Origin: Nereocystis luetkeana
Taxonomy: Eukaryota > Sar > Phaeophyceae > Laminariales > Laminariaceae
Direction of reading: 5' to 3'
DNA: 64,000 bases
Assembly (NCBI GenBank): GCA_031213475.1
Contig: JARUPZ010000003.1
Coordinates: forward strand, 10,319,963-10,383,962
The translations under genes and the position numbers were made by a program. Below are positions 5,700 to 63,925 of the stretch, piece by piece (within the stretch, counting starts at the first letter, position 1; every line of letters starts with the position of its first letter). The notes under the pieces are model-generated. The model searched no databases. It worked only from the letters and a program-made list of their open reading frames with translations, and was not told where the DNA came from.

Positions 5700-6028
5700 A
5701 AAGATGAGTCTTTAATAAATTAACCAATCAGCGCTTGGCATAGAATAAGTACGTCATAAAAAACTCTTCATCATTTAATATCATATACCAGGCACCAGGG
5801 TAGTCTGTACCTGGTAGTATGGTACGAGAGGAGCCGCAGCGTGTGGCTCCAGAAGGGCGGAGCAGCACACAAAAAAAATAACACGAGGAGTGCTTGAGTA
5901 GCAGCGCAGCAGCGCACAAATGGGCGCGTGAGCGTGGGGGGGGATTACTGGTGCAGCCCCTGCCGGGCCTGGTTGTGAAGGTGGATCTGCTGATCCTGGC
6001 GCGGCTGCTGGCGTTGCTGACCCGGCTG
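5700..6028. other. Unassigned stretch
   Basis: Contains a TACCWGGTA word at 5808-5816 next to a second, imperfect one near 5787. No gene seen. Confidence 0.4.
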
Positions 6029-6053
6029 CTGCTGCTGTTTATCCTGCTGCTGC

Positions 6054-6086
<33 letters not shown>

Positions 6087-6090
6087 GGTG
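6029..6090. repeat. CTG/CAG trinucleotide tract
   Basis: A run of CTG triplets with a few interruptions. On the minus strand one frame reads poly-Gln and another poly-Ser. Confidence 0.95.
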
Positions 6091-6104
6091 CAAGATGTTC
6101 CAAT

Positions 6105-6428
6105 CTACAGCCATCTAACCCGGTCGCGGCTGACCTCCGCCCCCGCGATGCCACGGCGGATAACAGCATTCGCTCGGGACACGATCGCCGCCGCCTCGTG
6201 GACACCACGACCCGTACGCTGCAGATATGCCTCCCGGTTCGCTTGGACATTTTTTTTCTTTTTACTCTTGGCCGAGGTTCCTTCTGTTTTTTTCGAAGTA
6301 CCCATCACGAAATTGATTGTCGTGGTCCCCAAAAAGGGACTAAGGGGGCGATTTTTTGTCGAATCGTTCTCTACGGATACTGCGTCGATTCGAGCGGGGT
6401 TTGTTTTGCTGCATGCCACACATCCCAA
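6105..6428 (-). CDS. Hypothetical Lys/Arg-rich protein, possible first exon
   Basis: 107 codons. From an internal Met near 6305 it reads MGTSKKTEGTSAKSKKKK, then NREAYLQRTGRGVHEAA and VSRANAVIRRGIAG. This is a hydrophilic, basic N-terminus followed by a helix-like region and looks protein-like. It stops immediately before the CAG tract, whose Gln-reading frame (5945-6250) overlaps in another register, so splicing into a poly-Gln exon is possible but no clean splice pair is visible. No family recognised and no counterpart in block B. Confidence 0.35.
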   Translation of the reverse strand: MGCVACSKTNPARIDAVSVENDSTKNRPLSPFLGTTTINFVMGTSKKTEGTSAKSKKKKNVQANREAYLQRTGRGVHEAAAIVSRANAVIRRGIAGAEVSRDRVRWL

Positions 6429-6429
6429 T

Positions 6430-6880
6430 GTAGGGCATGCTTAAGTCCGCGCACTACTCAAAAGCACTCATAGAGTAAGAGGCGAAAAACACAGAGAGAA
6501 ACATGCTTCTCCGCACCTTTCACTCTACAAATTCATCAATTCGTACTCCTGTGCTAAAATGAGCAAAGCATCCCAAAGGTATGGGCCTGTGTGAGGTGTC
6601 TGTATGACGTCAAGATCCAATTCATCTCCAGCCCAGAGAAATATCCTATACAAAGTTCACTATGCTTGCACACTAAAACCAAGTTCTTGGGGGTATGTCG
6701 GTAGTTTTACTTTTTCAGTTTTTTTTAAAATTTTTCGGCTGGTCGTTTCGAATAGCCTGCCGTTTTTTGGTCAAAACAGGCCTCCAATCCCACCCCTAAC
6801 AGTAGGGATTGGGATTGCGGGGCGCGAGGGGGTGGATGACTGGGGTCGTGATCAAAGTTACAGCCGTTCCAAGAAAATGT
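6430..6880. other. Unassigned stretch
   Basis: AT-richer sequence with T-rich tracts near 6710-6740. No gene or shared repeat was recognised. Confidence 0.4.
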
Positions 6881-6884
6881 AGCC

Positions 6885-8280: not shown

Positions 8281-8283
8281 AGG

Positions 8284-8377: not shown

Positions 8378-8436
8378 TTTGGGCCCGATCAGTTAAGACT
8401 GACGTGACTATACACAACTTAGGGACAGCCACATTC

Positions 8437-8531: not shown

Positions 8532-8627
8532 GAGTCCCGCTTGCTTTCCGATGTAATTATTTTTCATGTGTTAGATGTATCCTACGTAGTCGGCGGGATT
8601 GCCCATTCATTCAGTGCAGATTTCAGC

Positions 8628-10740: not shown

Positions 10741-11323
10741 CACGGTCGCATCGAAACTACGCACTGTAACTTCAAGTGTATGGCGACACACGGTAGTGAG
10801 TAGTGAGTGCACCGTAACTGAGGCGCCTGTGATTGCTCGCTCGAACAAATACATCTGTGCACCGTGCCGTATCAAGCATGGTAGGATCCGCCAACGTATG
10901 ACACGTCATCCTAACACGGAGGCAGCGAGAAGTAGGATTTCGTCCCCACCTTCCCCAATTCTGAACGCCGAGGGATGAGTGGGATGGGGGGGGGCGAAGA
11001 CCACAAGCGAAACGTAGAGAACGTGCCGACTTTTGGCAGATGTCATGCGTGGTTCGTTAGGCGAAAGCGTAGAGTAACTACGGTGAGCTGCGTGCTGCGG
11101 TATCTGGGAAAAGGGGCCGAGTGTTGGGAGACCGTCCGACATAAAACGTCCGCGTTTTTTCGCCCCTCACGTACGACGTGGGCGATTGCTTGTCTCGGAC
11201 GAACCGCGTGGAGGCACGCCACGAAAGGCTGCATGCCGACTACCAGGTAAACGCGTTTCGGGTGCCTCCCATCGCAATCGCATGTACCCGAGCGTCTTAT
11301 CGCTGTCGGAAGGGTTTGGAAAA
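10741..11323. other. Unassigned stretch
   Basis: GC-balanced sequence with small overlapping open frames on both strands. No splice-framed exon or repeat recognised. Confidence 0.35.
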
Positions 11324-11849: not shown

Positions 11850-12420
11850 AATGAGCAACGCCATCGAAATGATAAGAGGAGGGTCAACAAGCATGGGTGT
11901 GATTTCATGCCGCAGCAGAGAGGCCTCAATGATCCCAAACTATATACCAGGTATCAGGCACGAATTGACCTACGACGCGATCCTACAACAGCAATCTGCA
12001 AACAGAAAAGAGGGGACGCCCGCAGGGTGGATCCCCTGTGACAGTCGGGAAAGCCTCCTCAATATTGCACTTAAGAGACAGTGGTTGAATATCACTCCGT
12101 GAGCGATATCGCGGCTCTACAACAGCACGACAAACTCGAAACATGCTATTATTAATAGTAGGGGAAAAAACAGACCATCCCGCCCGCCCATCGTTGGTAG
12201 CGAGGTGTACCGTCGACACAGACCTCAGTTCTGTTAGTGTTCATTTTACCGGGGTAGCTACTCTCCGCGAAGAGGTGCCGCGTTGATTGCCATGGCAAAC
12301 TATTAACGCGGGAGTGGTGGCCCTGGGTGAGAGTCTCCGGCTGGTCGCAGCAGGAGGCCTCATTGATCCCAACTACATACCTACGAATTGACCTACGACG
12401 CGATGTTACAAGATAAATCA
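11850..12420 (+). repeat. Two related segments, 11900-11995 and 12330-12420
   Basis: Both carry 'gcagcag(a)gaggcctca', 'tgatcccaa' and 'gaattgacctacgacgcgat'. The first holds a TACCAGGTA word (11945-11953) and extra bases that the second lacks. Confidence 0.75.
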
Positions 12421-15299: not shown

Positions 15300-17260
15300 G
15301 ATGGGACTTCTCAAACGAGGAACTACTATTAATACAGTAGTAGTACACAAGTGCCCCACATCGTGTATTTGTTTTTTATTCAGTTCAATATATATATATA
15401 TATACTCCGGTATATATATATGTACAGACCTATCTATACGTACCGTGTTAGAAGAGTAGGCCATGGGAATATTGTTATTCGGTTTGAGAAGTAAGTATGC
15501 TTTTCTTTCTTTTTCAAGCCTGCTTTCGGGCGAATGCTCTCACCTTACCCCCGCGCGCAGACGAGTACAAGCCCTGTTTTGCTGCGATCTCTCTCAGGCG
15601 CTTGGATATAAAGAGAACAAAAAGCAAGAAAAACGAACGGTTTGTGAGCGACGGGGGGGGGGAGGAGAGCAACCCCACGGACGGATGGATGCCTCTACTT
15701 AGCTGATCTGATCCTTCTGCCGTATTTTTCATATATATAGCGCTTTCGCCATCCGGCAATCAATGGCACGGTCCCTCACCCCGTGCGGTTCATATAATGC
15801 GCGAAACCATGTGTGATTTCTCCGCGTGATTCGTACGTCATATGTACCACCATGTGCGATGTATCGGGACCGGCGGTGGCATTCGGCCCTCAGCACATAC
15901 ATACATAATCCGAAGCAAATGCACCAAACAACTAATTGTCCCGCGGTTAAACACTGGGGGACACGTTCGAACCACAAGAACCAAGTAAACATTGATGCAC
16001 AGGTAAAATACACCGTGCGCCGGCTGATACGTGAGGAATTTCGGTTGCGATCGCGCTGAGGTATTCGTAGGAAGTATCATGTCTATACCAGTACATGCAC
16101 TCCTGTATCACAGATCGTTTTTTGCCTTCCTTGTATTTTCGATTCCTTGGGGCTGAAACGTAGAGTTTCAAAATGTCAAAACGGCTGATGGGCGTACACC
16201 ATGGCGGGCCTTCTCGTTATTTTCCAGCGGCACAAAACGTCGTCAGATTTTTCCCTGCGCTACCCCCACGCCCCAAATGCTTCCGAAAGGGGGACAGCGT
16301 TGAAGTACGGCACGTTTTGTGGGAGGGCAAACACAAATATCACTGCTGCAGCACAAAACAGTAGGGTTATTAAACGGGGTGAAGCAGTTGACAAAACGCC
16401 CAGGGGTGCTCGACAAAAAGATAGCCCCCCCCCCCCCCCCCGCCCCCGACATACACTCCTTCCAAGCGTCGAAATGAAAAGCAAACCACAGCAGTGCGTA
16501 GGGATTTTTTCTACTGTTATTGGACAAACTTCGTACGTATAAGAAGCGCGAATGATTGTTTCAGACCCATTTGTATTCACTTGGCTTTAGACTACCCCCT
16601 CCTGTCTGGGTCTCGAAAATGGGCAGTGGGGTCACGTTTTTTTTTTTTTCCCCCGTGGACCCTTGAAATACCGGTACTTTTTTCGGCTCGATGACATTCA
16701 ACGTGGATCACACTCCTGAATGTACACAGATAGCTAGAATGACGAAGGAAATCGAGGGAATGAAATATACAAGTAGTGCAGCACGTATCATGCAACTTTG
16801 CAACAGTTATGCACATACATGCGTGCGCACATGCTGTACGAGTGGGGTCCGTCTGTCTCCATTTCTCCATATGTAGTATGATACCAGGACCCCGAGGGTA
16901 GTATGGTTTCAAAGAGGGGGGGGGGGGATAATTCTAGAGGGGGGTGTAGGATACCTGGTACTTACTAAGGGGTTGGATATATACTTTTTCTGGAGACGAT
17001 ACGTACACACACGCACGTATGTAGCATGGCGGGGTTCAACATCTCGGTTGTCTATACCCGTGCCCAGAAACAAGAAGAAAACCAGAAGGGGAAACAAAAA
17101 AAGGGAAACCTACGAGGGCTCTGTCCATCACGTGTAGAGGCTAGCTCCATGTTGTATACCTAAAGCAGTACTCTTTCTGTCAGATACACTGCCTGTAAGC
17201 AAATACCAGGTACGGTAGAAAGATAAAGATATGTCGCACCCGCAGTTTTCTGATTTGTCA
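15300..17260. other. Unassigned stretch
   Basis: Holds (TA)n at about 15388-15402 and 15411-15420, a C run at 16427-16441, a T run at 16638-16650, a G run near 16916-16927 and TACCWGGTA words at 16952-16960 and 17204-17212. Many short open frames on both strands; none convincing. Confidence 0.45.
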
Positions 17261-20215: not shown

Positions 20216-20645
20216 TTGGGAGGGGGGTGTACTCGATAGGAGAGGCGTATATATTCGATCTCATGCATGGCCGTAGTCTTATGACCATAGACCCTCGCAT
20301 CCCTACAATGCCGGGACGGAGCATGTCGGGTTTTCACCGCCCAGGCAGACATTTCTTGCACCAAGCGCGAAGCGCCGTGAGGTGTCTGGCGAGTGGCATG
20401 AAGGGCGAGCTGCATCCTACTATGAACCGCTTGTGAGGCGCACTTGCATATGGACGACAGCTTCAATGAGTTTATTTAATTTCCGGTGTAGGCATTCCCA
20501 GAGACGGCAATGGGAGTACTATGTAACTGCTTCTTGGGTGCCTTACCTTGAACACTACGTTATACGATCAATCCCACTTGTGCGGAGTAAAGGTTATGCG
20601 GGGTGAACTGTAGCAGTGCTCGGGGTGAAAGCCGTGCACAGCGGA
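20216..20645. other. Unassigned stretch of block B
   Basis: Contains 'catagaccctcgcatccc', 'gggacggagca' and 'tttcttgcaccaagcgcgaag', which recur at 21600-21690 ('ttacttgcaccaagcacgaag'). A ~450-bp segment is therefore duplicated within block B. Confidence 0.6.
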
Positions 20646-22439: not shown

Positions 22440-23000
22440 CCTCAGTACTACAGTAGCGAGAGCTGTGAGTCCGACTTACTGAGTTTCCATGCCTGTATCA
22501 TACCTACCTGGTACGAGGTAGGAAAGAGTATTGAACGCGGCTAATATTGTTTTGGGTTGGGGCGGGCCCTTCTCTGCCGGGCAAGTCGGCTGACCATCAT
22601 CAGCTGCCTTCACCCGTCAATTTTGCCGACTAAGTTCAGTTAGTCGCCTGACGGCGCCCGTCGGTTAGTTATTAGTTGTGAAATTTTGCCGACGAACCGG
22701 TCTACGGTACGACCTAAGTAACCAACCTTAGTGATTGATTGGACTGTGAGTAAGTCGTTTTCCAGGCGTGCCGACCATCCGACCCATAGAGTTCCCATGC
22801 TTGCTTGTCAGAAGTATTGTTGAATGCCGCTCACATTTGTTATTGGTTCGGCGGGATCCTCTCGGTCGGGGAGGGCTGATTTTGGTCGCCTGGCTTAAGT
22901 TGGCAAGTCGGCCGGCCATCAGCTAGCTTCGCCAGCCGGCTTGTCGACTGTAATCGGTCTGTTGACTAACGGTACCTTCCGATTTGTTTGAGGTCGTGAA
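22440..23000. repeat. Two ~300-bp hairpin repeats, block B
   Basis: Units at about 22440-22710 and 22740-23000 match the block A units. The second has the hairpin 'ggcaagtcggccggcc...gccggcttgtcgac' at about 22899-22948. A TACCTGGTA word (22505-22513) lies in the first unit inside 'catgcctg...gtaggaaagagtattga', where unit 2 and block A have none. Confidence 0.75.
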
Positions 23001-27469: not shown

Positions 27470-28660
27470 ATTGACAATCGATAGGTTCCTATTCCAATAC
27501 GTAGGAGGGCTATTGATGTTTGCGGTAGGTATCGATTGACACTTTTTGAAGCCTACTGTGTACATGTAGTGTGGCCGACAACGTGTATCGAGTGGCATCT
27601 TCACTGATCTACTGTCCGGCCAATAGCCTGTTGTACTTATTATCCATCTTAAGACAGTGGTCAAATAAATCGATATCAATCGAGAAAACTACACACTTAT
27701 CCTAAGAACAATAAGCTACTGCACAAAACTCTCTGAGCACATTGATCAAACACATAGGTATCGATCGCCACGTCTCTGTACATCCTGGTAAAAAAATGGT
27801 TTTCGAAACATACCTCTGCTTTACCCTCCCACTGCAGGGGACAGTTATCGATGTGCAATACCCCAACCTATCGGCAGTTTAATGGGGCATATCCAATAGG
27901 CCATACTGCGCAAGGTGCCGGGAATTGCGGCGTAGTATCTTCCATGGGTTCGTGGCTAAAATACACCTTCAGTTCGCATATAGCGGCTGCCCCGTAGCTT
28001 GGCGCAGCATCCCCATATATCCGGCGCTGTTTGTCGTTGCTGTACCGGAAGAGCTTTTAGGTGGATGGTCTTCGCAACAAGGTGGTGTGAGGCTCTAGCC
28101 TGTATGTAGTCTTCTAGACCGACATGTTTGTGTGCCGTGTAGTTTCTTCTGATATCCTGGATAATACCGTATTGAATATAGGCTGTCGGACCAACAACAG
28201 ACGTCGGAGATGATGTGTATCGATACCTGTTGCGAGCCACAATGGGAATGGCTCCGGTATATCGATATGTATTGAAAGCAACAATAGGACAGGGAGAACG
28301 GCCACAATAGCCTATTGTGCGTCCGATAGGGTCGTGAAGCTGCTGAGTGATACCTGGTAGTTATCTTGGACACCAATATTGTTTTTGAGTAAACATCAAT
28401 AGGCTATCGTATGGGCAATACCTTTGCATCGCCATCTATCGATACGTTTTGATAAAAAAGCGATAGGTTTGCAGTGATATCGATCGATGCCTATTGGTCC
28501 ATTCAGTAGCCTTGCAATATTGTCGACCAATGCCTACGAGTATATCGATCAATTAAATAGGTCTGCAAGGGTGTTCATCATCAATCAGTAAAAATGCGTG
28601 TTGTAATAACTCTTCGAGTAGGTTTGCAAGCGTATTGATAGATACCTATACTGACGAAAT
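27470..28660. repeat. TATCGATA/CCTATTG-rich degenerate repeat tract
   Basis: Words such as 'tatcgata', 'aataggtttgca', 'ctatcgat' and 'cctattgg' occur every few tens of bases, on both strands. The same theme resumes at 35140-35190 beyond the retrotransposon, so the retrotransposon inserted into this tract. Confidence 0.6.
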
Positions 28661-28847: not shown

Positions 28848-29347
28848 CGCCAGTCAGACAAACGGTTCCTGACACATAACTCGAGCAAACCTACCAGGTA
28901 CATGGTGACCTCACGACCACGTGCAAATAAATTTACACACAACTCGTACCAAGCATACACAAATAACACAAATACATTTAACTCACAATGTACTTCAGTG
29001 TTAATATACGGATAACCCCATTCTCCTAAACTTTCAGATTGCGCGCAAATCCGAGCCAATGCACCACCACGTTTTTTTTGTTTTGTTTTTTCACTCTCAT
29101 ATTATGATATGAAAAAAAAAAAACACCATAATATTATGATAAAAAGAAACCCCACTTGCATCGAACAAACAAACGCCAAACAATGCGACTAGCCCCCGCC
29201 GCCACTTGTGCAATCTACGACACCCGGTCGCACCACCAGCGAACATAACGGGTACGTCTAACAAACAGCAACAAACACACACACGTTACTGCGACCATTT
29301 AACTCCCCCCCACTGACTCCCTCAAAAGCACGGGCGGGTGGGTGGGA
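28848..29347. other. 500-bp segment between A2 and B2
   Basis: A canonical A1-B1-A2-B2 layout would leave A2 and B2 adjacent, so this piece is unexpected. It has a TACCAGGTA word (28892-28900) and an inverted pair of 'atattatgat' around an A run near 29100-29140. No open frame of note. Confidence 0.5.
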
Positions 29348-33312: not shown

Positions 33313-33363
33313 CGCCGCCGCCCCCCCAGGTGTTGGCCCAACCGACGGGAAGGGCCCGTGTCT

Positions 33364-35595: not shown

Positions 35596-35765
35596 CCCCA
35601 ATGTGCAGTCAATGCGCACTGATACGGATATTTTAGTTTGGATATTCGGGTAAGCGTAATATATACCAGGTACCTGGTACCTGGTATGCGGATAGATTTC
35701 GAGTCCGTCATACTCGTACTACTAACTTGTAGTACGGTATAATATTTATCCAATGTATCACCACA

Positions 35766-41675: not shown

Positions 41676-41959
41676 ATTATTAGTATCGGTATCGGACAGA
41701 AATATGCACCTGGTAGGACTCCCTGTCGGAGCTGTGGTCGGGGGGGGGGGGGGGGGGAGGACAACAATACGACCTACCAGGTAAAATAAAGCAGAGGTGA
41801 TACTGTAGTCTAGTCCACAGGGGTCGGACATATGGAATATATATTCCGCATGAAATTGTTGTATTTTTAGGAGACGGTGCTCGTGGTTGTTGTTCTCACA
41901 TTAACTCACAATACAATGCAGTCCGTGGTCGCAGGACAGGCTCCAAAACCTCTGGAGTG

Positions 41960-42330: not shown

Positions 42331-42463
42331 GGGAATCCGAACTATGTGTACGTGGTCTAACTCCGGTACAATGACCAATTTTTGGCTTATTAACTTGATA
42401 TTCTATATACAACTCGTACCTGATGGTATAACGTACCTGGTATACCTTTTCATTACTATTTCC

Positions 42464-43470
42464 CTTGCCATCCGACAATGTGCAGCATGATTTTCAACAT
42501 TGATCACTCATAACTTTCCCGAAAGAAGAAAACCTCGGAAACAAAAGGAAACCCATGCCCCAAGTCTACCTCCCTTCTGCTGGTGCCAACTTTCGGCTTG
42601 TCTACTCCATTTTTTGCTGTCCTTGCTCCTTCCTTCTCCTTACGTTCTATTTTTTTTGTGTTTCCCTTGCTTGGTTTCTTCTTCTTTTTGGGCAAATGCC
42701 TATTAATAATAGGAGGAGTGATCAACGTTGAAGCTGCTCGTGCTCCTCGTTCGTTTGGCCCTCGATAGTGAAATAATACCAGACACCCAAGGGCACACAA
42801 AAAACAAAAAGTTCCGATTCCCCGCTACACCTTTCTCGAGACCCACAGGGTAATACGTATACAATAAAACCCCCCATCAGCATAACACTGTGAGCGAGTA
42901 CAACTCCACGGGTGCCTACTGCAACGTGATTCTTTAGTTGTATATTACGAGTTCGCTGGTATGAACCACCAGGTAGGTATACTGCCACGGAGGCATCTAT
43001 CTCAGATTCATCGTATCACACGCGAAAAAAACAATCCGACATCCCACCAATTATTCCGTACGTGTACCGGTGTATGTATACACTTTTTTCAAGACCCTGA
43101 CGGGGAGAGTACACCAAACAAACAAAAAACAAAACAGAAAACGCAAAAACAAACCGAAAAAGGCAGTCTCCTATTTTTGTCGTGGATAAATTTCCCCACC
43201 CCAGCACTGGTTTGATTTTTTCATCATTCTGATCCTGTTTGCTGTGCGCCCCTGAGAGTGTCTCGCATCATCTCTTGGTGAGATTGGCGAGACCGAGTGG
43301 AGGGTGTGTTTTTTTTCGCAGCGTGGTTAGGGAGTGTACCAGGTACCCACCAATGAATGACAGCCGGTTCTTCTTTTATTTATTTGAGGATGTTGTGGTT
43401 TTCTTCTTCTTTCGGGAAAGTTAGGAGTGATCAATGTTGAAAATCATGATTCACTTAGTCGGATGGCAAG
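42464..43470. mobile_element. Repeat D element with ~65-80-bp terminal inverted repeats
   Basis: The left end 'cttgccatccgac...ttcaacattgatcactc...tttcccgaaagaa' is mirrored at the right end 'ttctttcgggaaag...gtgatcaatgttgaaaat...gtcggatggcaag'. The interior has no transposase frame. An inner inverted half copy near 42715-42750 suggests nesting. Non-autonomous DNA transposon of unknown superfamily. Confidence 0.7.
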
Positions 43471-44330
43471 AGAAATACTAATAGTAATATTGTGGCCTTT
43501 TTCTGATGATGATAATAAAAAATACTTTTTGTTCTTTATTTTGTGAGTGTTGGTGTGTTTCATTCACGATCAAAATGCAATCAGTAAAAGGGACCAGGGT
43601 ACCTGGTATAATACGTACCTGGCAGTCATTTGTGGCAGCTATTGTAGCTGTCGATCACACCAATGAACACCCAAATCAGAATTGGTATTAAATAGTATCG
43701 CAAGACATCGAAGGTCTGAGATATTCAGTGTTCATGGGCGAAGCGCCTCGCCTCCGAACACCAACTTTCTAGTATTGTTATTATGCTTACCATCCGACAA
43801 CGTGCAGCATGAGCTTCAGCATTGATCACTCAAAACATTCCTGAAAGAAGACATCTCCGGGAACAAAGAAAACCTATTCACAAAGTGTATCTACGTTTTG
43901 TGTCTGCTTCCCTCTATGATGTATCTGCAATACTCTATGTGTTGTCTTTGCTCCCTCCTACATCTCAACATGTACTCGTCACTTTCTATTCTTAAAAATC
44001 CTGAGCCGCATCCAATTCTCTGTTTTACGAGCCTGTCTAGGCTGATTTTGACTTCGCTTAGGTGAATCGATGCATTATCATCAATTTGTATCCTAGGTTA
44101 GATTTTGGCTGTGAGGGGAATGCGGCTCCTAAAAAAAAACAGAGGGCGACCATCATTATCATGGGAAAGGCAATTCTCAAATAATAGGAAAACCGGTTGT
44201 TCGTTGATGTCATGGGCCGGGCCGGAATAGTTCGTGGATGGTTGCTCGTGATGGTGGCACGGCTTCAAGGGATCATGCAGACACGAAATAGAGTATCCAT
44301 ACAATAATATAGATAAGTGAATTACACGGC
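43471..44330. other. Unassigned stretch with a solo repeat D copy
   Basis: The solo copy starts at 43796 ('cttaccatccgacaacgtgc') and runs to about 43930. A TACCTGGTA word lies at 43600-43608. No gene seen. Confidence 0.6.
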
Positions 44331-48470: not shown

Positions 48471-49737
48471 TACAGTTACTAGTACCAGGTATGTGATATG
48501 AGGGTAAACGGTGCGACGAAAACCCATCACGTGTCACGTGAGGCTCCGTAGTAAGGAGACCCGAAAATGCCCTGAAAGAAGCCATGAGGTTCCAACAGGT
48601 TTCGTGTGAAAAAGTGCCTTGGGAGTGATGCGAAACTCCTTGGGGTTCATGAAGGGTCGTCGCAAATCACGAGGCCAACAAAGAGCTCTCACGACAGTGC
48701 CCGTGAGGTTTCATGAGCTAACCGCCGTGAGGTGCCACGATGCTTCATCAGGGGTCATAGGGGGTCATGGACCCGACGAGAACTAGGGCACCGTGAAGTA
48801 CCGTGGGGGTTTCGGTGTCATGCGGCTTCATCGAGTAGGGCCGGTGGGGTGTAAAAAGGGGGCGAAAAGGTTTTGATGAAGGGTCACGAGGTTGTCGCGG
48901 GATGCGCTTATGTTTCGCGGCAGCAGCGCTGCTGCCAAGTTTCATGAAGTGAAGTGAGGACTCGTGAAACGACACTCGAGATGCCAGTGAGGATTTCTTG
49001 AAGTGTTATGGGGGGGGGGGGGGGGGGGAATGCCGCCATGAGGTTTCATGAAGTACACAGCTGCAGTACGGTCGCGAAGGGGGATACAAGAAGAGGTGCC
49101 AGTAGGGTTCATGAACTGCCGCGATGTGGCATGAGGGGCTACCGGGGTGCTCGACCCAAAGGGAAAACAACATACAGCCCTTCCCAGTGTTTAAAAAAAA
49201 CTAACACGCCAGTCCGAGAGGCGAGATTAGTTTCTGTGGACGAAATTACGAAAAGCCAGTTTTTTTTTCATATTTGTATTTTACTCAGTTTTAGTATCCC
49301 CCCCATATATATATATATATATATGGGGGCTCGAAAATGAGAAGTGGGGTGTCGGGATTTTGTTTTTCCCCCGCAGACCCCTGGACACCATGAGGTTTCG
49401 CGATGCCGTCATGATAGTTCGTGAACGGGCATGAGGTGCCATGCAGAGGATTCAAGAAGAGATAAAAATGCTATGGAGTGAAGTACCGTGAGGTTTCACG
49501 AAGAAGGAGCCATAGGTTATTATGACCTGATGTATACGGGGGGGGGGGGGGGGGGGCTGAGGCGCCATGGTGTGTCGTGAAGAGGCCGTGCTATTCCATG
49601 AAGAAGGGGCATGATGAGGTTTCACGGAGGGTCAGGGGAGTGCTGTGAGATGCATGAAGCGCCGGGCCATGGAGCGGTCTGCGCGGGGTGACGTAAGAAG
49701 CCCTGGGGTCTTCATGGACGGCCACAGTACATACTGG
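48470..49737 (+). repeat. Degenerate array built on ATGAGGTTTCATGAAG
   Basis: Variants of 'cgtgaggtttcatgaa', 'gccatgaggtt' and 'ccgtgaggtgcca' recur every 30-60 bases, with G runs at 49012-49028 and 49538-49556 and a (TA)n at 49305-49324. The array resumes at 51150-51300. Confidence 0.75.
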
Positions 49738-49740: not shown

Positions 49741-51134
49741 TATTACGGGGGACCATGGTCAATAGGACCAATTATTGTCAGTAGAAATGGTTAGATATAT
49801 ATGTGTGTGTGTTCTTCCACATTAAACCGTTCTTTCTACCCGTCGACATCCAGCACAACTAGTGTCCGTGCCGATTCTTCAATCCTAGAAGAGATACAAG
49901 TTATGTGGTCACAAAGCTACGCCACAGACATACTACGTTGCCACATACTACGTTGCCACGTATGCAGTAAGCATAGCAGTGGGCAATGAAATGGCATGTC
50001 GTCATACTAGATACGACAGGCACGACTTACGCATTCTATGAAATAGACAAACGAAAGGAAACGATCAAAGAGGAAACAATAACAAAGAAGACAAATCAAG
50101 AGAGAAAAACAAAAAAATAAAGGAAAAAAAGAAGAAATAGAAGAAGCAAACTGTCGTGCCCCCCCTCGCAGGCGAGGTGGCAGACACTTGAAAAAGAACG
50201 AGCTATTATAGGAAAAAAGAAAAAAGGAAAAAGAAAAAAACACCACTACTTGTAAACAGAGCAAGACAAGAACCAAGGGAAAAATGACGAGGAGACATAA
50301 CAGGCAGACCAAAGCCCAAAGCCCCTTGGCATCAGACAATACGAAACAAGCAGAGCAGGTTCGTCATCAACCCACGCCACACGACTCCTTCCATACGGCT
50401 TGTCAATCGAAAAAAGGAAGAGAAAGAAATAAAATGAAAATCACGAAGAATAAGAAAGAAAAAAACAAAACAAAAAGATAAGACAAAGGAAGACCACGTT
50501 CGAACCAGCTGCACCCGTTGGTGGCACTAGTAGTATAGTCATGTTCTACTTCCTAGTCGGCCTGGTGCCTTGCTACCCTGTCTGCCATCTCCTTCCTAAC
50601 TTTCGTCCACCGTAGTTTCCCTTCTACTCCTCCTGTTCCCCCCCCTCTCCGAATTCCCTTGGTCGGGTTTTCTGCCACTTATTATCCTGTTGTCCCCCCC
50701 CCCCCTCACTCCCTTGAACACCGTCAACGGCGGATGCGCGGCGCCGCCTGCTCATCTCAGCCTCAGCCTCGTGCCACCTCACCATGAACCGTTCGGCTGC
50801 TTCAAGGTTCCCCCCGGTACCACTTTCCCGCCTTTTTGGCTGCAGTGGGCCACAACTTTGTCTCAACTCCAAACACCAAGGTGGCAACTTCCGTTGACCC
50901 TTCGGTGGCTCGGAATTCTCTAAGGTCTTCGACTATGCATCTATGCCAAGTCTTAACCTGCCCGCCTGGTCTCGGGGTTTTCCCCACCAGCTATCGTCCC
51001 GAATAAATACCCGACTGGGTAAACGCTCCTTTCTTTGCCGTGCCGCGCCCCCCACAAAGAAGAGCCGCCGTTTACGAATGGTTTATAGGTGTCATGTATA
51101 CCACAGGTCCTATTGATTATGGTCCCCCGTAATA
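49741..51134. mobile_element. MITE family A termini separated by ~1.27 kb
   Basis: The left arm (49741-49805, 'tattacgggggaccatgg') and right arm (51075-51134, 'tgattatggtcccccgtaat') pair as family A ends. Between them lie A-rich tracts (50040-50270, 50400-50480), a 'ctacgttgccac' duplication near 49935-49960, and no transposase frame. Either another sequence inserted into a MITE or this is a longer relative from which the MITEs were derived. Confidence 0.6.
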
Positions 51135-51899: not shown

Positions 51900-52265
51900 G
51901 TGACGCCAACTTCAACTATGCACGTCGGCTCAGCCCAACCCGACCCCAGACCTAACGCTAACCTCGACCCTTTTGAGGAGGTCGAGGTCGGCAGGGGCAG
52001 TCACGCGACTCCGCCGCGTGTTTTGGTGGCGTTTTTCCAACAACAAAAAAAGATCCAGGCGGCCGAAAGACCCGCCTTGTCCAATAAGACTCGCACCCTG
52101 CACAAAGTTTTGCGCCGACCCGTCCTGCACAATGGGGCGAGTCGAGGTAATCCTATCGTAGGAAACTCTCATAAATACGTACCAGGTACCTGGTATACGA
52201 TTATGAACACGCATGCATGCACTACTGCTGCTATAAAGTGTGCTCCTTCGACTGTGGGAACGTAA
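51900..52265 (+). CDS. Hypothetical open frame, low confidence
   Basis: Reads DPFEEVEVGRGSHATPPRVL, AFFQQQKKIQAAERPALSNK and TRTLHKVLRRPVLHNG before entering a TACCWGGTA-bearing stretch. Composition is protein-like, but the reverse strand is also open and no splice sites or family are evident. Confidence 0.25.
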   Translation: MTPTSTMHVGSAQPDPRPNANLDPFEEVEVGRGSHATPPRVLVAFFQQQKKIQAAERPALSNKTRTLHKVLRRPVLHNGASRGNPIVGNSHKYVPGTWYTIMNTHACTTAAIKCAPSTVGT

Positions 52266-52329: not shown

Positions 52330-53472
52330 TCCTGCACATATATATACGAAGTAGGACGAGTCTCGGCAAGCCTACTACTACTGCAGGGAACTCCAAGGAA
52401 TACGTATGTATGAACGTGAACATATACAGGTACTACTGCTGTGAACTGTGGTCCTTCGCCCGTACAAAATCTTCTTGGCTGACCTTTCTGCCTGCGAGCC
52501 TGTCTGGCTCCCCTGTCTCTCTTGTGACATTTATTTTTTGATCGCTATACCCTCCTCTCCTCTGCGTCCGGTTTTCATCAATCTCCAGATGGCGGTGGCC
52601 GAAAGACTGAGACCTTAAACCTTCCCGGGGGGCGAAGAACCAGCCTCAGAGCGAGAGGCGCAATCGGAAATATCGGAACCGGAACGCCCCCCCTTCCCCC
52701 CCCTCCCCCCAGACCTCTGAACCTCCCCCAACTATTCCCCAGCTGCTGTGGCATCTATCTCCACCCCCCTCGCGGTCATCAGTGCAACATTTTCGAGGGC
52801 GTGGTGATTGATGTCATTGGACGGCATATAAATAAATACTTCGAAGTAGAACGAGAACTGCTATTAACATTAACGTGGAATATATCAGGTACGTATCTAC
52901 GGCTTCATATAAAATGGCACTTAGACGTATTTACTGTAATATGAATAGGAGACCCCTCTTTTCGGGCGGCAGTGCCTCTGTTGAGCCTTATTGTACTGAT
53001 TTCAGTGTTAGGGGTAGATCAGTCAAGGGGGGTTCAACCCGCGGTTTCCTAGCATCTTTGAAAACAGCACATTGTAACGTCAACAGTCAAGCAACTGTGG
53101 TGCCTGGGACGAGCTGGAGGCTAGTTTTGGTCACTCATGCCGCGAACCAGCTTGGTTTCCATCCACCCCCCTCCCCCCCGATGTATATATACATATTATA
53201 TACCAGGGTATATATATATATACCTTTCACGCCGGCGCCTGCTGTTTTCTTCCTCTATACCAACCCCTCTGCCACGGCTTCATTCGCATCTCCTGGTACT
53301 GTGAGTTAGTTTGCGTTCCTGTTTTTTTTTGGCAAGTTTTACCCCCCAACCAGTCTCCCTCCCTTTTAGCCCCCCATCCGCCTCCCCCTCCAGCTGCGCC
53401 TGTTTGTCTAACCCGGCCACAGGCAGGTGTCACCTTGCGGCAGAGTATATAGAGAGATCCAACAACCAGCTC
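52330..53472. other. Unassigned stretch
   Basis: Contains a partial repeat of 52160-52260 near 52400-52460 ('ctactgctgtgaactgtgg(t)cct'), C-rich runs near 52685-52710, and a 144-codon plus-strand frame (52875-53309) lacking motifs. Confidence 0.35.
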
Positions 53473-54290: not shown

Positions 54291-57200
54291 TTATACTGGC
54301 ACATACCACCATCATGATATCTCTACCACTTACGACATGCACGGCAACGCCCATGGCGCCATGCGATGACTTGTCCACGCCAGTATTTCTGACCGAGTAG
54401 GGAGGGAACAAGTGCTAACCACACGGCGACTTACCAGCCCGCTTCTGCAGTACCAGCAACAACAGACAAAGAAAAAACGACCGCATTTACCGTGTGACCA
54501 CAACAACCAAAAAAAAAACGCACACACACACGTGACGAAAGATGCCCGCTGTGATAAATAGACATCACGAGATATCCAGATGCCTGCGGCAAATACCACG
54601 AGATACCCCAGCACAACGGTCAACCGTGTTTCTACTCTCATGTACCAGGTATTAATAGCGAAGACGGGACGAAAAGAGAGGAGCAGAGTACGGAAGAGAG
54701 GGGGAAAATATAGAGCCTCATCGCTGCATACCGCTTGTTGTTGTTGCCAGTCCCCTTCTCCCTGGCTGAGGAGGAGCCTCCCCGTTTCAAGGACAAAAAC
54801 TTCCTCGAAAGAAAATGCGAAAACGCCTCCCTCTCCCTCTCCCTCTCCCACTCCACACGATCGATTGTTCTTTCGACCTACCTACTGGTACCTACCTACC
54901 GATCGACCAACCGACCGACCGACCGACCGACCGACCGACCGACGGATTGCTCGTCCGACCCACCGTCTGCTCGGCCGACCGACCGACCGGCGGGCTGTTC
55001 GTCCGACCGAACGACCGAATGTTTGTCCGATTGTTCCAACCTTATTATGCTATAGACCCATCTCTCTCACACACAGAGGCATGCATACGCACGCGCATAC
55101 CGACAGGCAAGCAGACAAAACAGACAGACAGTTACTGTGGGACATGATCAACGCGCGGACCAGGCGGGCGGTCCCTCTTCCCACCCTCGCCTCCGTCCCT
55201 AGTTCGCGCAGAACAAAGCTAGAAGCAAAATAAACAAACAAACAGACAGATAGACAAACAAAAACAAACAAACAGACAGACAAAACAGATGGCAAGCTTC
55301 TCCCCCGCGACCAGCCATCTGCTGCTGTAGTACGAGAGACGAGCCTTTCTTTTTTTTGTATTTCCTTTCCTCCTTCGAAAAAAAAACCCGAAACACCCGA
55401 GGCAATCAATCTCATGTTCATGTTTCATGCTTCTGTACGGCTATTTATGTGTCCCAACTAAATATGTACCCACCCATGTTTCACCGAGGCCCTGCGGCCG
55501 TACGGTAATAGATCCCGTGATAAGTTGTACTGCTGTGGTTGGTATGGATGTACGGGGGGGATCCGTTTTTTTTTATCGCCACAAAGAAAATGTATGCGGC
55601 GTGACGAGACGCGTCTTTTTGCGCCGAAAGAAGCGAGAGCAAGCGGAGCAAGCAAGCAAACTAGGGTAAAGAAAGCAAACCGAGAAGGCCAGCAAAAGCA
55701 AGCAGGCGAAACGAGCAAAAAGCAAAGCATAAGCAATAGCAAAGCAAAAGCCAGCAAAAGCAAAGCAAAAGCAAAGCAAAAGCAAAGCAAAAGCAATGCA
55801 AAAGCAAAACATTATGTCCGCCTGCATTGCATTGAGCTATCGATAGTCTACATCGGTTGCATCCCTGTGTGGTTCTCGCGTGCACGCATCGGCAGATGTG
55901 TCATACAGGCTGAGAAAAAAAGGGTACATAGCGTCAGCGGGCACGAAAAAAACGTATTTGCTTGCCCCATGCGCCTACCAGAAAAAAAAGCACGACATAA
56001 GTCAAGAAAAAAAAATCGAAAACTAAGTAAAAGCTAAAAATCAAACCTAAACCAGAAACATAGCAGTAAGAAAACGATCGAAAATAACTTCCACGAAAAG
56101 CAAAGAAAACAAAAACCACATCAACAACAACAATACGAAGAACGGAGCAAAATGAGCAAAATGAGCGAGAACACTTCGGCTAGCTACGTTACGAGCAGCG
56201 TGGTGGCATTGCTTCGCGTCCCGACGGAAGAGCCTTTTGAGTCCCACCACCTTCCTGCCAACCGACCAACGGACTAGTCGATCGACCAGCCGACCAACCA
56301 ATCCACCCAACCAGTAAGTACACCGACCATCCGACGACCCGGCCGGCCGACCACCCAAAACAACCAGCCAACCAATCAGCCAGCTAGCGACCACCGAACC
56401 AACTGGGCAACCAATCAACCAATCGAGCACCGACTCAAGCCAATCAATCGACCCACCTACAGACCAACCAACCCGACGAACCAACCAACCAGTCAACGAA
56501 CCAGCCAGCCAGCCAGCCAGCCTATCAACCAACCAACCAACCAACCAACCAACCAACCGTACGGGCGCTGTCGTAGCGGCATCATGCGTCGCCGTGCGAG
56601 CACCCGTCACTGCTTATTACCACCGATGGCAGCAGGTATTGCTCAGACAAACTTTTCCGTCTGCTGCCTGTACAGCTTCGAGTACAAGCCTCCTTTCCTG
56701 GAAACACCATCGTTGCGGCATTGCGTATTAGGGGAGGGGAGGGAGGGGAGGGGGGGGGGGGAGATAAACGAAAAGCAAATGACAATTGAATACATGGATA
56801 CAAAAATAGAAAAGCAAACAACAAAGTAAAAAAATAAATACGTACGAGCATGTACATAAGAAACCAAACAAAGAACGTAAATAAGAAAAGAAGGGCGAAA
56901 ATAACGGGAAAAAAAAAACTCAACAACGGATAAAAGAATCAACAAATAATCAAACCGAACAAATAAACCAACTGACAAGTGATGAGAAAGACTAATCAGT
57001 TCGGCAAAGAATACCCGCGTATCAGGTTTCCATTGGCCGACGGAGAAATCATCCACTCTTCTCTTCTGGCGTACTGCTGCCGTTCTGAGTGACAGCACAA
57101 AAAAGAGGCCGGCACACCAGTTCCCAGTCGTCCGTTCCTCTGGCGCGTAGCCGCACGAGTAAAGCAGAGACGTACACGCGCATGGGCGCGACGCTGCTCG

Positions 57201-59167: not shown

Positions 59168-62100
59168 CTGAGGTACGCCGCGAGAGAGTTAAGGGGTTTG
59201 CGAGGGAGGGGGGGGGGGGGGGGGGGGGTCGCCCCGCTATTGGCATGTTCCACTCGATCACCAGGGAGGTTGGAGGAAGAAGGGCGGTTGAAACGGGCGA
59301 GCCAACCGAGAGGAGCATGACGGAAATCGATCGGGCCGCCCCTGTATACGGCACACAGGAAACGACCACAACAGCCCGACGGCAACAGCAGCGTCAACAC
59401 TACCGACAAAATCACTCCACCATTAGCACCAACAACGACCACCAACACCATCACGGCCACCACGAATATCATCGCCAACACCAAACACCAGCACCGAGGC
59501 CAGCTACGAAAAAAGATCAATAACCAACCGCTACGACGATAACAACGACGAGTCACCGCCGCCATGCAACCTGGCGGAAACACCCCGGGGCGACATAACC
59601 GCGTTTGAACCTCACCTGTCGCTCGCTCTCGTTATCCAAGGCCGAAGTGGCTTCGTCCAGTAGCAGGATCGAGGGGTCGTTGATGATTGCGCGGGCGATG
59701 GCGATTCTCTTTGGGAGGCGGGAGGGGGGGGGGGCAGGCCGGGGGGGTAGCGAGAAGCAAAAATACACGGGGAGGAGCGATCGTCATAATTTCTAGCAAT
59801 GCGGTCGCGGGCACGGACAAATGTGAGCGGGCTAAACACTACATATAGGTCATACGACTACGGCCATGCATGACGTGAGTGCCCCCCTCCCCCCCCCCCC
59901 CCCCCCCCCCCCCCCAGCTCGCGCGCGCGCGCGGTCAGCGCATGCGGCACTTACATCGATAGCACTGTGCCGCCCATCCCCACACAACAAGTTCTGCTGC
60001 TGCTGCTGCCGGCATGCTTCTGCTGCTTCGAATCAAATGGTGGACGATTTTGTTTTTTAATGCCGCCGCTGGTGCGGTTTGCCGCTACTAATGTTGTGAG
60101 TGTGTCACGTTTGTCCAAGCCCTTCGTGCCACAATAGAGATGGAAAAAAAAAAAAAAAAAAAAATGCCTCAAATCTCTCAGCCTTGCAAGACCAGAAACA
60201 TCCCCCAAAACCTCTCAAACCCCTCTTATTCAAGCTCTCAGGCGAACCACGCTCTTGAAAACGTTTCTTAATTCGCCGCGTGCGTGTTGTGTATGCGCGC
60301 GCTCTCTAAAAGGCTCAAGACGACTCCCAGAAACCCCCCCCCAAAAAAAAAAAAAAAAACTCCCAACAGCACTCCTGAAGGTATCAAAAACTCTCAACAG
60401 CAAGTAAATAACGCAGGAGGCATTTGCGTATACATATCCTGGGTTCATCAATGCACTCGACGATCAAAATACCGGTAGCTCTCAAATTTCCGAAAAAAAG
60501 GCTCGAAACTCCTAACCCCATGTCCCTGAATATAATGATCACTTGGATTAACAACTGATACAAAAACGTGCCCATATTTAGGTACACAGTGGCACACGAG
60601 ACATACCCCGTTGAATTTCTCTCCACGCTTCGGGAGCCAAACTATTACGGGGGACCATAGTTAATAGGACCTATGATATACATAAAACCTACCTGGTATA
60701 TATTTAACCATTTTTACTAACAATATTTGGTCCTATTAACTATGGTCCCCCGTAATAGGACCTCGGCGCTACCTGTAAAATATGTTTTTTCAGCACCCTT
60801 GGAGTACAACAATTTTAGGGCTGCAACAGTTCCCCTCTCGGCGACAAACTACTTTTCATAACTCCAAGCGGTTTGTTTGTCCCCAACACGGGAAGACAGT
60901 TCCAAAAAAGGGTCGACAAGCGAAAAAAAAAAAAAAAAGAGAGAGAGAGAACAAAACACATCCAACGTCCTCCTCTGCATTGCGCGCTCGGCGTTCAAAC
61001 ACCTGGTTCAGCAGCACACTCGGGTATGCGTTTTTACTGCTTTCTACAGGCAGCTGGAGGTCGTGCATACAGGCGCACGGAGCAAGTCAGTGGGTACACA
61101 CGAGTATTTATGCGCAGATTGCAGAGAGGTGACATCGTCGACTTAACCCTCGACCTCGCCGCTACACGTGTTGTTTTTTTTGTGTGTGGTTTTTCTTCTC
61201 AAAAAAATATTTGAAATTCGCGCGGTCGGTTCTAATGAATTACTTCTCGCAAGTCGACGAAACCGGCGTAACTATCAAGCTGTACGAAGCAAGTGAACTT
61301 TAAGACGTGTACGCTGAACAGCCCACGTGCCAAAGGGCCGCCTACGCCATCCCCCTATATATACTCGTACACACGTGGACACTCAAACAGTCTCTCGTGG
61401 ATGGATGAGTGAGTGAGTGAGGTGGGCGAGTGAGTGAGTGAGTGAGTGAGTGAGTGAGAGAGAGAGTGAAGAACAAACAGGGTGAGATGAAAAACACTCT
61501 GTCGCTTGGTTTTCTTCACTACGTGGAAAGGTGAGGAGAGGCGTGAGAGGGCGTTCTACGGCAGAAGTTCATTCACCCTCATTCAAGGAAGCTCCTCACC
61601 TGACCCGAAAAACTGACCTCAGCAAAGATCGAATTGCCACTGCCCCAACTACACAACTACCAGGGTACGTCTTTTTTCGAAACGAGATTGGAGTTGGGCC
61701 GATTTTCGGTCAAGAAGCCCCGTCATTCAGAAAACACGTTAGGCGGAAATGTGCTACCTCTATCGTAGAACGCGTCGGGAAGGGTATATAGAGAAAAAAA
61801 CAAAAAACAAAAATGACCGCTGACCTGCTTCTGACCCCCGGAGAGGAGGGCGCTCTTTTCTCCGACATCGGTCTCGTAACCGTCCCTGCACCAAAAACAA
61901 CAACAACAAACAACAACAAAACGGGAAAATGGAGACGGATAATGACGCTGAAAATTATATTGTAAAAAACAAACTGGAAATAATGATACTGAGAACGATG
62001 ACAGTGTCGAAAAATATCAAGGACAACAAAGAAAAAGGGAATGCTCTTGACTCTGATGACAGACAAAACAGCGAAAAGATGCACGTAACGATGATGATAG

Positions 62101-63166
62101 TGAAATTGAGCGTAAGCTAGAGGAGGAGGAGGAGGAGGAGGAGGACGGGGGCAGGAGGAGGAGGAGGAATAGGAGGAGGAGGAGGAGGAAGAGGAGGAAG
62201 AGGAGGAGGGGGGGGGGGGGGGAGCACTATTACGGGGGGCCATAGTTAACAGGACCAAATATGTAAGGTAAAAATGGTTAAACATATAGTTTTTTATGTG
62301 TACCATAGGTTCTGTTAACCATGGTCCCCCCCGTAACAATAGGAGGAGAAACAACGAACACTAATGATTGGTAATGATAACGATCATGGGAACGATCATG
62401 ACCATGGTTGAGAGCGAGGCAGAAATGGACGTGAGCACGAGAAATGACAGCGAGAAAACCTCCCGCATCCACAGCACTTTAGATTGTGTTGCTTTCACTG
62501 CCCTCTCTGATCACGAGCACCCGCGTTTACGGGGATAAAAAACGCTTCGAACTACCGGAGGACAACACACACAGTCAGTGCTAATCCTCCGGCAAAAATG
62601 AGAACGTGAACCACAGCAGTTGGGCAGTGAAACAAAACTCGATCCCCCCACCGCGATCACTCTACCGCAAAACGAGCCCCTTGGGTGGGATGGGATCAGC
62701 CAGACGCTTGATCCTCTTGGGGCAAAACTGCCGTCGCGTTTTGGGGACGAGCCAGTCGAATTAGAATTAACCTTAAGACAAGACTGCAGTCCTACTCGTC
62801 TATAAAAATGGTCGGGCCAAAAGTTGCGGTTGCTAACCTACCACCGACTACTTTTGTGACAACTACCGGACGACTCGCACGAAATTCTTGGGAGATTTTT
62901 TCTCCCCTGCCAACGACTGCATGTGTCCATGTATACCTCGTGCTTACTTCGCGGATACGAATAAAACCAGAGCGCCTTCCAAGAACAAACAAACAAATAA
63001 ACAAACAAAAAGTTGTAAATGGATTGTGTTTGGCTTACGGAAAAAGAAGTGATGAAGTCGTGCGCAAAGGCAGACTTGGCCGCCTTTTCTATTTCCGATG
63101 TCGTGGCCCCCCGGCTTTTCCTCTCTCGATGTTCTCGCGGATCGTTCCCGTGAAAAGCACCGGTTC
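59013..63166 (-). CDS. ABCB-type ABC transporter gene, partial (four exons)
   Basis: Exons at 63039-63166, 61825-61885, 59616-59708 and 59013-59167 join in phase (with the caveat below) into one nucleotide-binding domain from the Q-loop to the H-loop. The family couples ATP hydrolysis to export of substrates across a membrane. Motif wording ([31 protein letters not shown]) fits the MDR/TAP-like B subfamily. Introns are GT-AG. The Walker A exon and transmembrane exons lie upstream, beyond the N gap and window edge; more exons may lie below 59013. Two homopolymer length differences in the first exon shift frame and cancel out over the exon. They may be assembly errors or signs of decay. Confidence 0.9.
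59168..59615 (-). other. ABC transporter intron (between Walker B and H-loop exons)
   Basis: 448 bp, with a G run near 59208-59227 and an ACC/CAC-rich tract at 59380-59500. The latter produces a Val-rich apparent membrane frame on the minus strand that is not coding. Confidence 0.8.
59616..59708 (-). CDS. ABC transporter exon with Walker B and D-loop
   Basis: 93 bp, acceptor CAAAG, donor GTGAGG. It reads [13 protein letters not shown], then [12 protein letters not shown] (Walker B, catalytic Glu, D-loop) and NESERQ. All key residues are present. Confidence 0.92.
60645..60757. mobile_element. MITE family A, copy with TACCTGGTA
   Basis: 113 bp. Terminal inverted repeats of about 29 bp begin TATTACGGGGGACCATAGTT and are perfect or nearly so. 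TACCTGGTA sits at 60690-60698. Flanking TA fits a Tc1/mariner-like target. Nearly identical to 63809-63925. Confidence 0.92.
60813..60915. mobile_element. MITE family B, diverged copy
   Basis: 'agggctgcaacagttcccct' and 'ggaagacagttccaaaaaag' pair as arms, with 'gcgacaaact' and 'gtttgtccccaac' inside. Confidence 0.65.
61405..61465. repeat. (GAGT)n repeat
   Basis: About 13 units with one interruption. Confidence 0.95.
61560..61775 (-). repeat. Dispersed repeat C, reverse copy
   Basis: 'aaggaagctcctcacctgac', 'gaaaaactgacctcagcaaa' and 'acctctatcgtagaacgcgt' are the complement of the repeat C core and lead-in. Confidence 0.75.
61825..61885 (-). CDS. ABC transporter exon with signature motif
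   Basis: 61 bp, acceptor TGCAG, donor GTCAGC. It reads [20 protein letters not shown] and contains the LSGGQ signature that contacts ATP across the NBD dimer. Confidence 0.9.
61886..63038 (-). other. ABC transporter intron (between Q-loop and signature exons)
   Basis: About 1.15 kb, with a (GGA)n tract at 62119-62222, a MITE A (62228-62340) and a decayed MITE B-like arm near 62700-62795. The 5' end is rich in TTTG on the minus strand. Confidence 0.7.
62228..62340. mobile_element. MITE family A, copy without TACCWGGTA
   Basis: Arms 'tattacggggggccatagtt' and 'accatggtccccccc'. The centre 'ggttaaacatatagtttttt' matches the other copies minus the inserted word. Confidence 0.88.
63039..63166 (-). 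CDS. ABC transporter exon with Q-loop
   Basis: Acceptor after a C run (AG at 63167-63168), donor GTAAGC. It begins [19 protein letters not shown]. After the G run near 63110 the homologous reading continues in another frame as [18 protein letters not shown]. The exon length (128 bp) nevertheless leaves the phase required by the next exon, because the G-run and T-run differences add up to a multiple of three. Confidence 0.85.
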
Positions 63167-63564
63167 CTGGGGGGGGGGGGGAAACGAAAACGAAAACGAA
63201 ACGAAAATGAAAACGAAAAAACGAAAAACGAAAAAACGAAGAGTGAAAAAAGAAAAACGATCGTTGACAAAACTAGAAAATATATGTATATGTTTAATAT
63301 ATACCTGGTATAATACATGTAAAATGGAAAACGGAAAATAAAAAACGAAAAAACGAAAGACGAAGAAACGGAACATCAAAACAACAAGGAATTTGGGGCA
63401 AAAGAAAAACAAACACGATAGAACGAAAAAAACGAAAACAGCACAAAGAACTGGAACACATTTCGTGATAGAACTACTGCTGTAACTACCCGACATGAAA
63501 AAAAGTACTGCTGCTATACGTACAGCATGGCTATGACATTATCCCCCACACATTTGACGTATTC

Positions 63565-63664
63565 NNNNNNNNNNNNNNNNNNNNNNNNNNNNNNNNNNNN
63601 NNNNNNNNNNNNNNNNNNNNNNNNNNNNNNNNNNNNNNNNNNNNNNNNNNNNNNNNNNNNNNNN
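63565..63664. other. Assembly gap (100 N)
   Basis: Exactly 100 N, the usual placeholder for a gap of unknown size. Upstream ABC exons may be hidden here. Confidence 0.98.
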
Positions 63665-63692
63665 TAACAATAGCGAAATATGTAGGCACTCT

Positions 63693-63792
63693 TTAAACCC
63701 CTTTAGCACCGCACTCCCATCTGTGGGGACAAAACACTCTAATTATAAGTAGTTTGTTCCCAAAACGGGACTGGGGTCCTAAAGAGGGTTAA
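63693..63792. mobile_element. MITE family B, copy
   Basis: Near-identical to 53473-53569 over its whole length, so both moved recently. Confidence 0.92.
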
Positions 63793-63808
63793 TATGCCCC
63801 CCCCGTAG

Positions 63809-63925
63809 TATTACGGGGGACCGTAGTTAATAGGACCTATGGTATACATAAAAAACCTACCAGGTATATATTTAACCATTTTTACGAACAATACTTGGTC
63901 CTATCAACTATGGTCCCCCGTAATA
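63809..63925. mobile_element. MITE family A, copy with TACCAGGTA
   Basis: Near-identical to 60645-60757, but the word at 63858-63866 is TACCAGGTA where the other has TACCTGGTA. Flanked by TA. Confidence 0.92.

Follow-up and report, generated by a model that had tools for sequence, protein, structure and literature searches.

TACCWGGTA in the brown alga Nereocystis luetkeana as a probable excision footprint of a TA-inserting transposon

Introduction

Excision assays typically reveal the footprints of transposons in small numbers. In brown algae, Mariner-Tc1 and pogo-type (DDE_1) elements insert at TA, and HIP1 of cyanobacteria is a highly iterated short palindrome that reaches an extreme genomic density. 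Here we describe the 9-mer TACCWGGTA (W, A or T) in a stretch of 64,000 nt from Nereocystis luetkeana (assembly GCA_031213475.1, contig JARUPZ010000003.1, positions 10,319,963 to 10,383,962; referred to as the window) and across the whole assembly. We consider it likely that its copies, referred to as scars, each arose separately as the excision footprint of a cut-and-paste transposon that inserts at TA; that a full transposon occupied the sites, and the superfamily to which it belonged, we infer. Four observations form the basis of this reading: the word is inserted at TA with duplication of the TA, it follows a target preference, it occurs in length variants, and it arose by separate events at one and the same site.

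For Tc1/mariner elements, the available text of one report gives a footprint of 2-4 bp (PMC7913693) and that of another a 3-nt overhang (PMC7827188). Ectocarpus has 17 Mariner-Tc1 families (PMC12477816), and TA target duplication is described for the PHISTA and ESTA elements of rust fungi in the accessible text of PMC12730594. As judged by the titles and the beginnings of abstracts of the papers listed, literature searches yielded nothing on such a word or such a count, and papers containing TACCAGGTA concerned, by title, unrelated topics.

Results and Discussion

Abundance of the word

We identified 22 exact matches to TACCWGGTA at 19 loci of the window. Because TACCAGGTA and TACCTGGTA are reverse complements of each other, W marks only the strand, and the two forms are one word. 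Dinucleotide shuffles of the window (n = 100) gave a mean of 0.34 and a maximum of 2, and 22 was reached in none. The original prediction, made from the window's sequence, had reported the strong over-representation, a triple overlap at 35664 and a double at 52180, all of which the exact matches confirm (35664/35671/35678 and 52180/52187); its 18 loci are all real, but the list was incomplete and missed the one at 11241. The sites, each located by exact match and two of them also by alignment of copies of a miniature inverted-repeat transposable element (MITE), are as follows.

5808..5816, minus strand, scar TACCTGGTA
11241..11249, plus strand, scar TACCAGGTA, absent from the earlier list
11945..11953, plus strand, scar TACCAGGTA
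16952..16960, minus strand, scar TACCTGGTA
17204..17212, plus strand, scar TACCAGGTA
22505..22513, minus strand, scar TACCTGGTA
28351..28359, minus strand, scar TACCTGGTA
28892..28900, plus strand, scar TACCAGGTA
35664..35686, no strand assigned, triple scar with common TAs, TACCAGG TACCTGG TACCTGG TA
41775..41783, plus strand, scar TACCAGGTA
42434..42442, minus strand, scar TACCTGGTA
43337..43345, plus strand, scar TACCAGGTA
43600..43608, minus strand, scar TACCTGGTA
48483..48491, plus strand, scar TACCAGGTA
52180..52195, no strand assigned, double scar with one common TA
54643..54651, plus strand, scar TACCAGGTA
60690..60698, minus strand, scar TACCTGGTA at the central TA of the MITE copy 60641..60762 (also copy alignment)
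63302..63310, minus strand, scar TACCTGGTA
63858..63866, plus strand, scar TACCAGGTA at the central TA of the MITE copy 63807..63930 (also copy alignment)

Among the TA-N5-TA words of the window TACCWGGTA ranks first, with 22 of 220, followed by words with 4 copies each, and TACCSGGTA does not occur in the window. Across the whole assembly (465,085,209 bases) we counted 182,395 copies, about 1 per 2,550 bases, roughly 100 times the 1,744 copies of the reversed word used as a control; the window is typical of its genome in this density. Chance is ruled out as a source by the window shuffles and by the reversed-word control, and the genome-wide frequency is far from the expectation-level value that the original prediction had named as a refutation. 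In a 264-kb sample, consisting of the window and 20 other 10-kb loci and including 2,600 bases N, there were 81 copies (59 in the other loci and 22 in the window) and 5 copies of TACCCGGTA, against 2.5 expected. When copies at most 30 bp apart were merged into clusters and counted in the 20 loci and six bins from the window, clusters per 10 kb had a mean of 2.65 and a variance of 2.76, matching a Poisson law.

A single larger repeat family, named in advance as a second refutation, or an assembly artefact could also multiply a word, and two of the window copies do belong to a single MITE family. Within the 264-kb sample, nevertheless, flanks outside recognised repeat pairs are unrelated, so that the copies are not one larger repeat there, and we give this explanation virtually no weight.

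Insertion at TA and target preference

Repeats present in several copies allowed scarred and empty sites to be compared. At L004:7563 the sequence reads CAGTTACATACCAGGTAGTACTCCC, while seven sister loci, four of them distinct, carry CAGTTACATAGTACTCCC with a plain TA (the window at 20.5 kb, L014, L151 and L158, with L152, L159 and L160 as identical duplicates).

20373..20597, minus strand, repeat copy with the empty site CAGTTACATAGTACTCCC, whose homologue at L004:7563 is CAGTTACATACCAGGTAGTACTCCC

Similarly, L014:6518 is scarred (GTATCACGTACCAGGTAGTGTTTAT) and L171 has the exact empty site GTATCACGTAGTGTTTAT; L011 was also compared as an empty-site partner. The remaining sister copies aligned more poorly or bore the scar as well. 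Since sister copies hold a plain TA in place of the word, TACCWGGTA is, on these alignments, a 7-bp insertion that places CCWGG into a TA and duplicates the TA. The TA target duplication of Tc1/mariner elements is thus present at the scar sites relative to their empty sister copies. Gaps between repeat copies comprised eight distinct 7-bp insertions, three of them TACCWGGTA and two CC..GG relatives, in a survey biased by three of those five lying at the MITE site and by 30 of the 51 sequences having been fetched by the scarred MITE. Also found at TA in this survey were TACCAGTA and TACCATGGTA, insertions of 6 and 8 bp.

The flanks of 68 non-tandem copies, compared with the background of TA sites, revealed a mirror-symmetric preference for A/T at -7, for A at -6 and for A/G at -1, with C scarce at -3, mirrored on the other side. 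The pattern persisted with more sequence (228 half-sites), and when sites were oriented by their central base the two sides were nearly alike, save at position -2.

A functional motif under selection, such as a protein-binding site or a CCWGG methylation site, would suit a word that is palindromic save for its centre and very abundant. Such a motif should be fixed in place by its function, whereas this word follows Poisson spacing, is absent from sister repeat copies, enters TA with duplication and has variants in the same flanks, all of which makes selection for a function an extremely unlikely cause.

Length variants and polarity

We ranked TA-X-TA words with a flank model derived from copies of the main word. 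The high scorers were the main word itself, AT repeats, TAGGACCTA, CCAG (27 sites), CCAGGG (9), CCATGG (3) and the one-substitution form TACCTGATA (10 sites), with flank-model z values of 4.6 for CCAG, 4.45 for CCAGGG and 3.2 for CCATGG. Several of these forms were also in excess (CCAG 27 vs 8.2 expected, CCAGGG 9 vs 0.7, CCATGG 3 vs 0.2), as was CCAAGG (2 vs 0.5), and CCCAGG was without excess (1 vs 0.7). Junction heterogeneity of one to two nucleotides is therefore present among the scars. Interior substitutions of the word numbered 41 against 22 expected; because forms with insertions or deletions are about as frequent as substituted ones, heterogeneity at formation fits better than later decay. 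Two length variants lie in the window.

53201..53210, plus strand, length variant TACCAGGGTA
61658..61667, plus strand, length variant TACCAGGGTA

When the word is read on its A strand, variation is found chiefly towards the GG, suggesting that the end of the element probably continues CCAGGG(G). Polarity at the MITE site agrees, with CCAGGG 86 times and CCTGGG 4 times among the 100 listed of 123 matches.

Separate events at the central TA of a MITE

Two copies of one MITE in the window carry the word at the same position.

60641..60762, plus strand, MITE copy with terminal inverted repeat TATTACGGGGGACC, scarred at its central TA; query for other copies
63807..63930, plus strand, second MITE copy, the same TA scarred with the other strand of the word

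A first look with this query turned up 1,671 candidates genome-wide; scoring covered 40 of them, and 30 were retrieved. Because these 30 loci were selected as closest to a query that is itself scarred, scarred copies are favoured among them, and they include the window's own copy and four identical duplicates; their central TA held CCAGG in 13, CCTGG in 6, CCGG in 5, CCAGGGG in 1 and CCCTGG in 1, and was empty in 4. Near-identical MITE copies thus bear different scars at the same TA. Genome-wide, copies with exact anchors comprised 742 scarred and 5,589 empty ones, under a pattern that requires CC and GG and by which CCAG is undetectable. The first 100 of the 742 scarred copies contained CCAGG (45), CCTGG (29), CCGG (6), doubles (8) and rarer forms (12).

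The observed occupancy was 742 of 6,331 (11.7%). A target matrix built from other scars (140 half-site flanks, combined with the scar density of the sample) assigned the MITE site 20 times the average rate and predicted 11.7% occupancy, an agreement whose exactness is luck. The agreement of prediction and observation speaks for events that took place separately at a favoured site, and not for one scarred ancestor that was copied. Inheritance from such an ancestor was rejected, as near-identical copies differ in their footprints and the occupancy fits separate events. One copy, L189, holds what reads as both ends of an element, CCAGG-A-CTGG.

In the window, a 1.39-kb stretch (49741-51134) lies between terminal repeats of the same MITE family, perhaps as a longer relative or as a MITE with an insert.

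Tandem scars

The double word TACCWGGTACCWGGTA occurs 15,917 times genome-wide and its reversed form twice. TACCAGG itself scores well as a half-target, at about 4.5 times the average in the target matrix, so that frequent tandems are to be expected. Among 59 doubles listed on the plus strand, the orientations, counted by eye, were AA 23, TT 17, AT 14 and TA 5. This non-random orientation does not support an origin of tandems by mismatch repair with random outcome, and could be caused by polarity of insertion or by slippage. The double word was also present in 9 stretches of viral contigs and in at least 118 of prokaryote contigs, numbers that by estimate are close to chance for collections so large.

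Common and often equally oriented tandems would also arise if the 5-bp word were a micro-palindrome that spread by itself through break repair or slippage. However, the sites of the word are unrelated to one another, their spacing is Poisson-like and they share a preferred target around TA, its tandems are already expected from the half-site fit, and we know of no means of self-copying for so short a word; we consider self-spreading highly unlikely. Both alternatives offered by the original prediction, the self-spreading micro-palindrome and the bound or methylated site, therefore fit less well than a scar.

Search for a parent element

The original prediction had suggested a search for full transposons starting TA-CCAGG or TA-CCTGG, and in 264 kb a search for TA-flanked inverted repeats beginning CCAGG found none apart from scars. 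We read 60 places matching either of the two junction patterns: 55 were scarred MITE copies, and five (L178, L185, L186, L196 and L220) depart from the MITE past the anchor into no recognisable element. TACCAGGG in a target-like context occurs at 2,868 places genome-wide; two of the 16 read share CCAGGGGAGCGGGGARCGAAMTATT after dissimilar flanks. This gave a candidate end, the 17-mer TACCAGGGGAGCGGGGA, with 87 exact copies in the genome and none reversed, two flanks having been read; it was absent from the viral contigs. The pattern W...D.R fits 84 of the 87 copies, where the share is 62% for scar half-sites and 28% for TACC; because this fit exceeds that of the scars themselves, the flank on the left may belong to a repeat, and the 17-mer stands as a candidate end only. 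Same-strand copies lie about 15.4 kb apart at C5:12571557-12642282 and C21:2186271-2201652, one C5 interval being 24.3 kb. Another pair among the 16 places read, beginning TACCAGGGGGGA, had like flanks and matches a repeat extending left of the TA, and was dropped as an element end.

DDE_1 gave 28 matches in the genome, and the shortest distance between one of these and one of the 87 candidate ends was 46,757 bases. In the window, Pfam searches of the open reading frames (ORFs) returned only weak Phage_integrase and Pao peptidase matches, and Rfam, at gathering thresholds, returned none.

Several results weigh against excision of a transposon as the source. No full-length element with CCAGG ends was found among the sequences read, TA-flanked inverted repeats starting CCAGG in the 264 kb were scars only, and 40 of the 123 left-anchored MITE-site matches, when read, proved to be 35 scarred MITEs and five other sequences with no recognisable element. 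A DDE_3 profile search of the genome scored 30 candidates, none of which matched at E <= 0.001. The two sides of the target are unlike at position -2 in the central-base orientation, simple AT repeats and the MITE word TAGGACCTA also score highly in the flank model, and CAGG is raised too (18 vs 10.6 expected), which weakens the argument from polarity. With the genome-wide scar density, about 28% higher than that of the sample, the predicted MITE occupancy becomes about 15%, and equal orientation in 40 of the 59 doubles listed departs from what a mismatch resolved at random would give (p 0.009; for 2:1:1, p 0.006).

The lack of a recognised element among those 40 matches, and of any CCAGG-ended inverted-repeat element in the 264 kb, would also fit an abortive break, in which a transposase or a TA-specific nuclease cuts and repair from a short template adds CCWGG with no element ever present; variants are aborted transposition and the joining of a released element end. 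Against this stand the duplication of TA around an ordered core with variants of plus or minus one nucleotide, and L189, which apparently keeps both ends, as excision leaves them. We regard an abortive break as unlikely, although less so than the other alternatives. The reading originally predicted, a scar left by a TA-targeting transposon whose ends are CCAGG/CCTGG, is supported by the empty sites, the palindromic flanks, the variants and the varied MITE scars; the transposon itself we infer.

A second scar word and other sequence features

TACGAAGTA occurred 11 times against 2.6 expected in 345 kb, with one empty site (L006) and flanks of the same preference as the main scar (13 of 21 half-sites); related transposons with ends CTTCG may be its source. 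This second scar word has the counterpart TACTTCGTA, and TACTTCGAAGTA adjoins a CCAGGG scar in the MITE copy L231. TACAGTA and TACGAGTA had raised counts and were rejected as further scars because their flanks misfit the target; TACGAGTA/TACTCGTA stood at about 5 times expectation (264-345 kb sample) without the target preference of the scars.

Elsewhere in the window, a 66-bp repeat (22 codons) forms long arrays at 3104-5443 and 19030-19838, and both strands of 3070-5723 carry ORFs several hundred codons long. At 29840-34865, ORFs weakly match tyrosine recombinase and Pao-type peptidase, with no TACCWGGTA inside; this region is possibly a DIRS/Ngaro-like retroelement. On the minus strand of L005:1-2730, a single ORF combines a NADAR domain with a reverse transcriptase, an arrangement reported, in the available part of the source, for Ectocarpus Gypsy elements (PMC12477816); this by itself makes a brown-algal host probable.

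Proposed mechanism and implications

In the mechanism that we propose, a cut-and-paste DNA transposon would enter a TA inside a loosely palindromic target and duplicate the TA. On its departure, end joining would seal the break and keep about five terminal bases (CCAGG) between the two TAs, W reflecting the strand on which the bases of the end stayed, and trimming or extra bases may yield the minor forms CCAG, CCAGGG, CCAGGGG, CCATGG and CCGG. As the scar would mimic a half-target, new insertions could fall beside old scars and leave tandem ones. Cut-and-paste hopping need not raise copy number, and a long-active element of low copy number could be far outnumbered by its scars. The genome seems to hold a very large record of past jumps, with the element itself rare or gone.

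More tentatively, and on balance doubtfully, these sites may trace a transposon group that inserts at TA, leaves an unusual footprint of 5 nt and vacates its sites almost always, with scars outnumbering residents by hundreds or more to one and with more than one type of end (TACGAAGTA), leaving a countable and datable log of about 180,000 events. Insertion would then be a passing state, either through hyperactive hopping at low copy number or through near-obligate excision like that of ciliate internal eliminated sequences.

With about 180,000 footprints in one genome (1 per 2.5 kb), target choice, repair outcome and age become measurable by counting, and the MITE site alone serves as a natural assay, in which one sequence has yielded 742 outcomes. 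If scars do outnumber elements by hundreds to one, counts of resident copies badly underestimate transposon activity.

Comparison with known systems

HIP1 resembles the scar word as a short palindrome at extreme density; to our knowledge, it is not a TA insertion with target duplication, in which it differs. PHISTA and ESTA share one feature with these sites, the TA target duplication, as far as the accessible text describes them. The footprints of Tc1/mariner elements (Sleeping Beauty, ZB, Stowaway MITEs) are alike in that the TA is duplicated, a few terminal bases remain after end joining, and the result is a small palindrome. They are unlike in size, the main core here being 5 nt and not the 2-4 bp (PMC7913693) or 3-nt overhang (PMC7827188) given in the available texts, which adds to the points against our reading, and in number, with about 180,000 scars in one genome and no matching element among the sequences read. 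The brown-algal Mariner-Tc1 and pogo-type elements share insertion at TA with the scar sites, and DDE_1 domains are present in this genome, with 28 matches.

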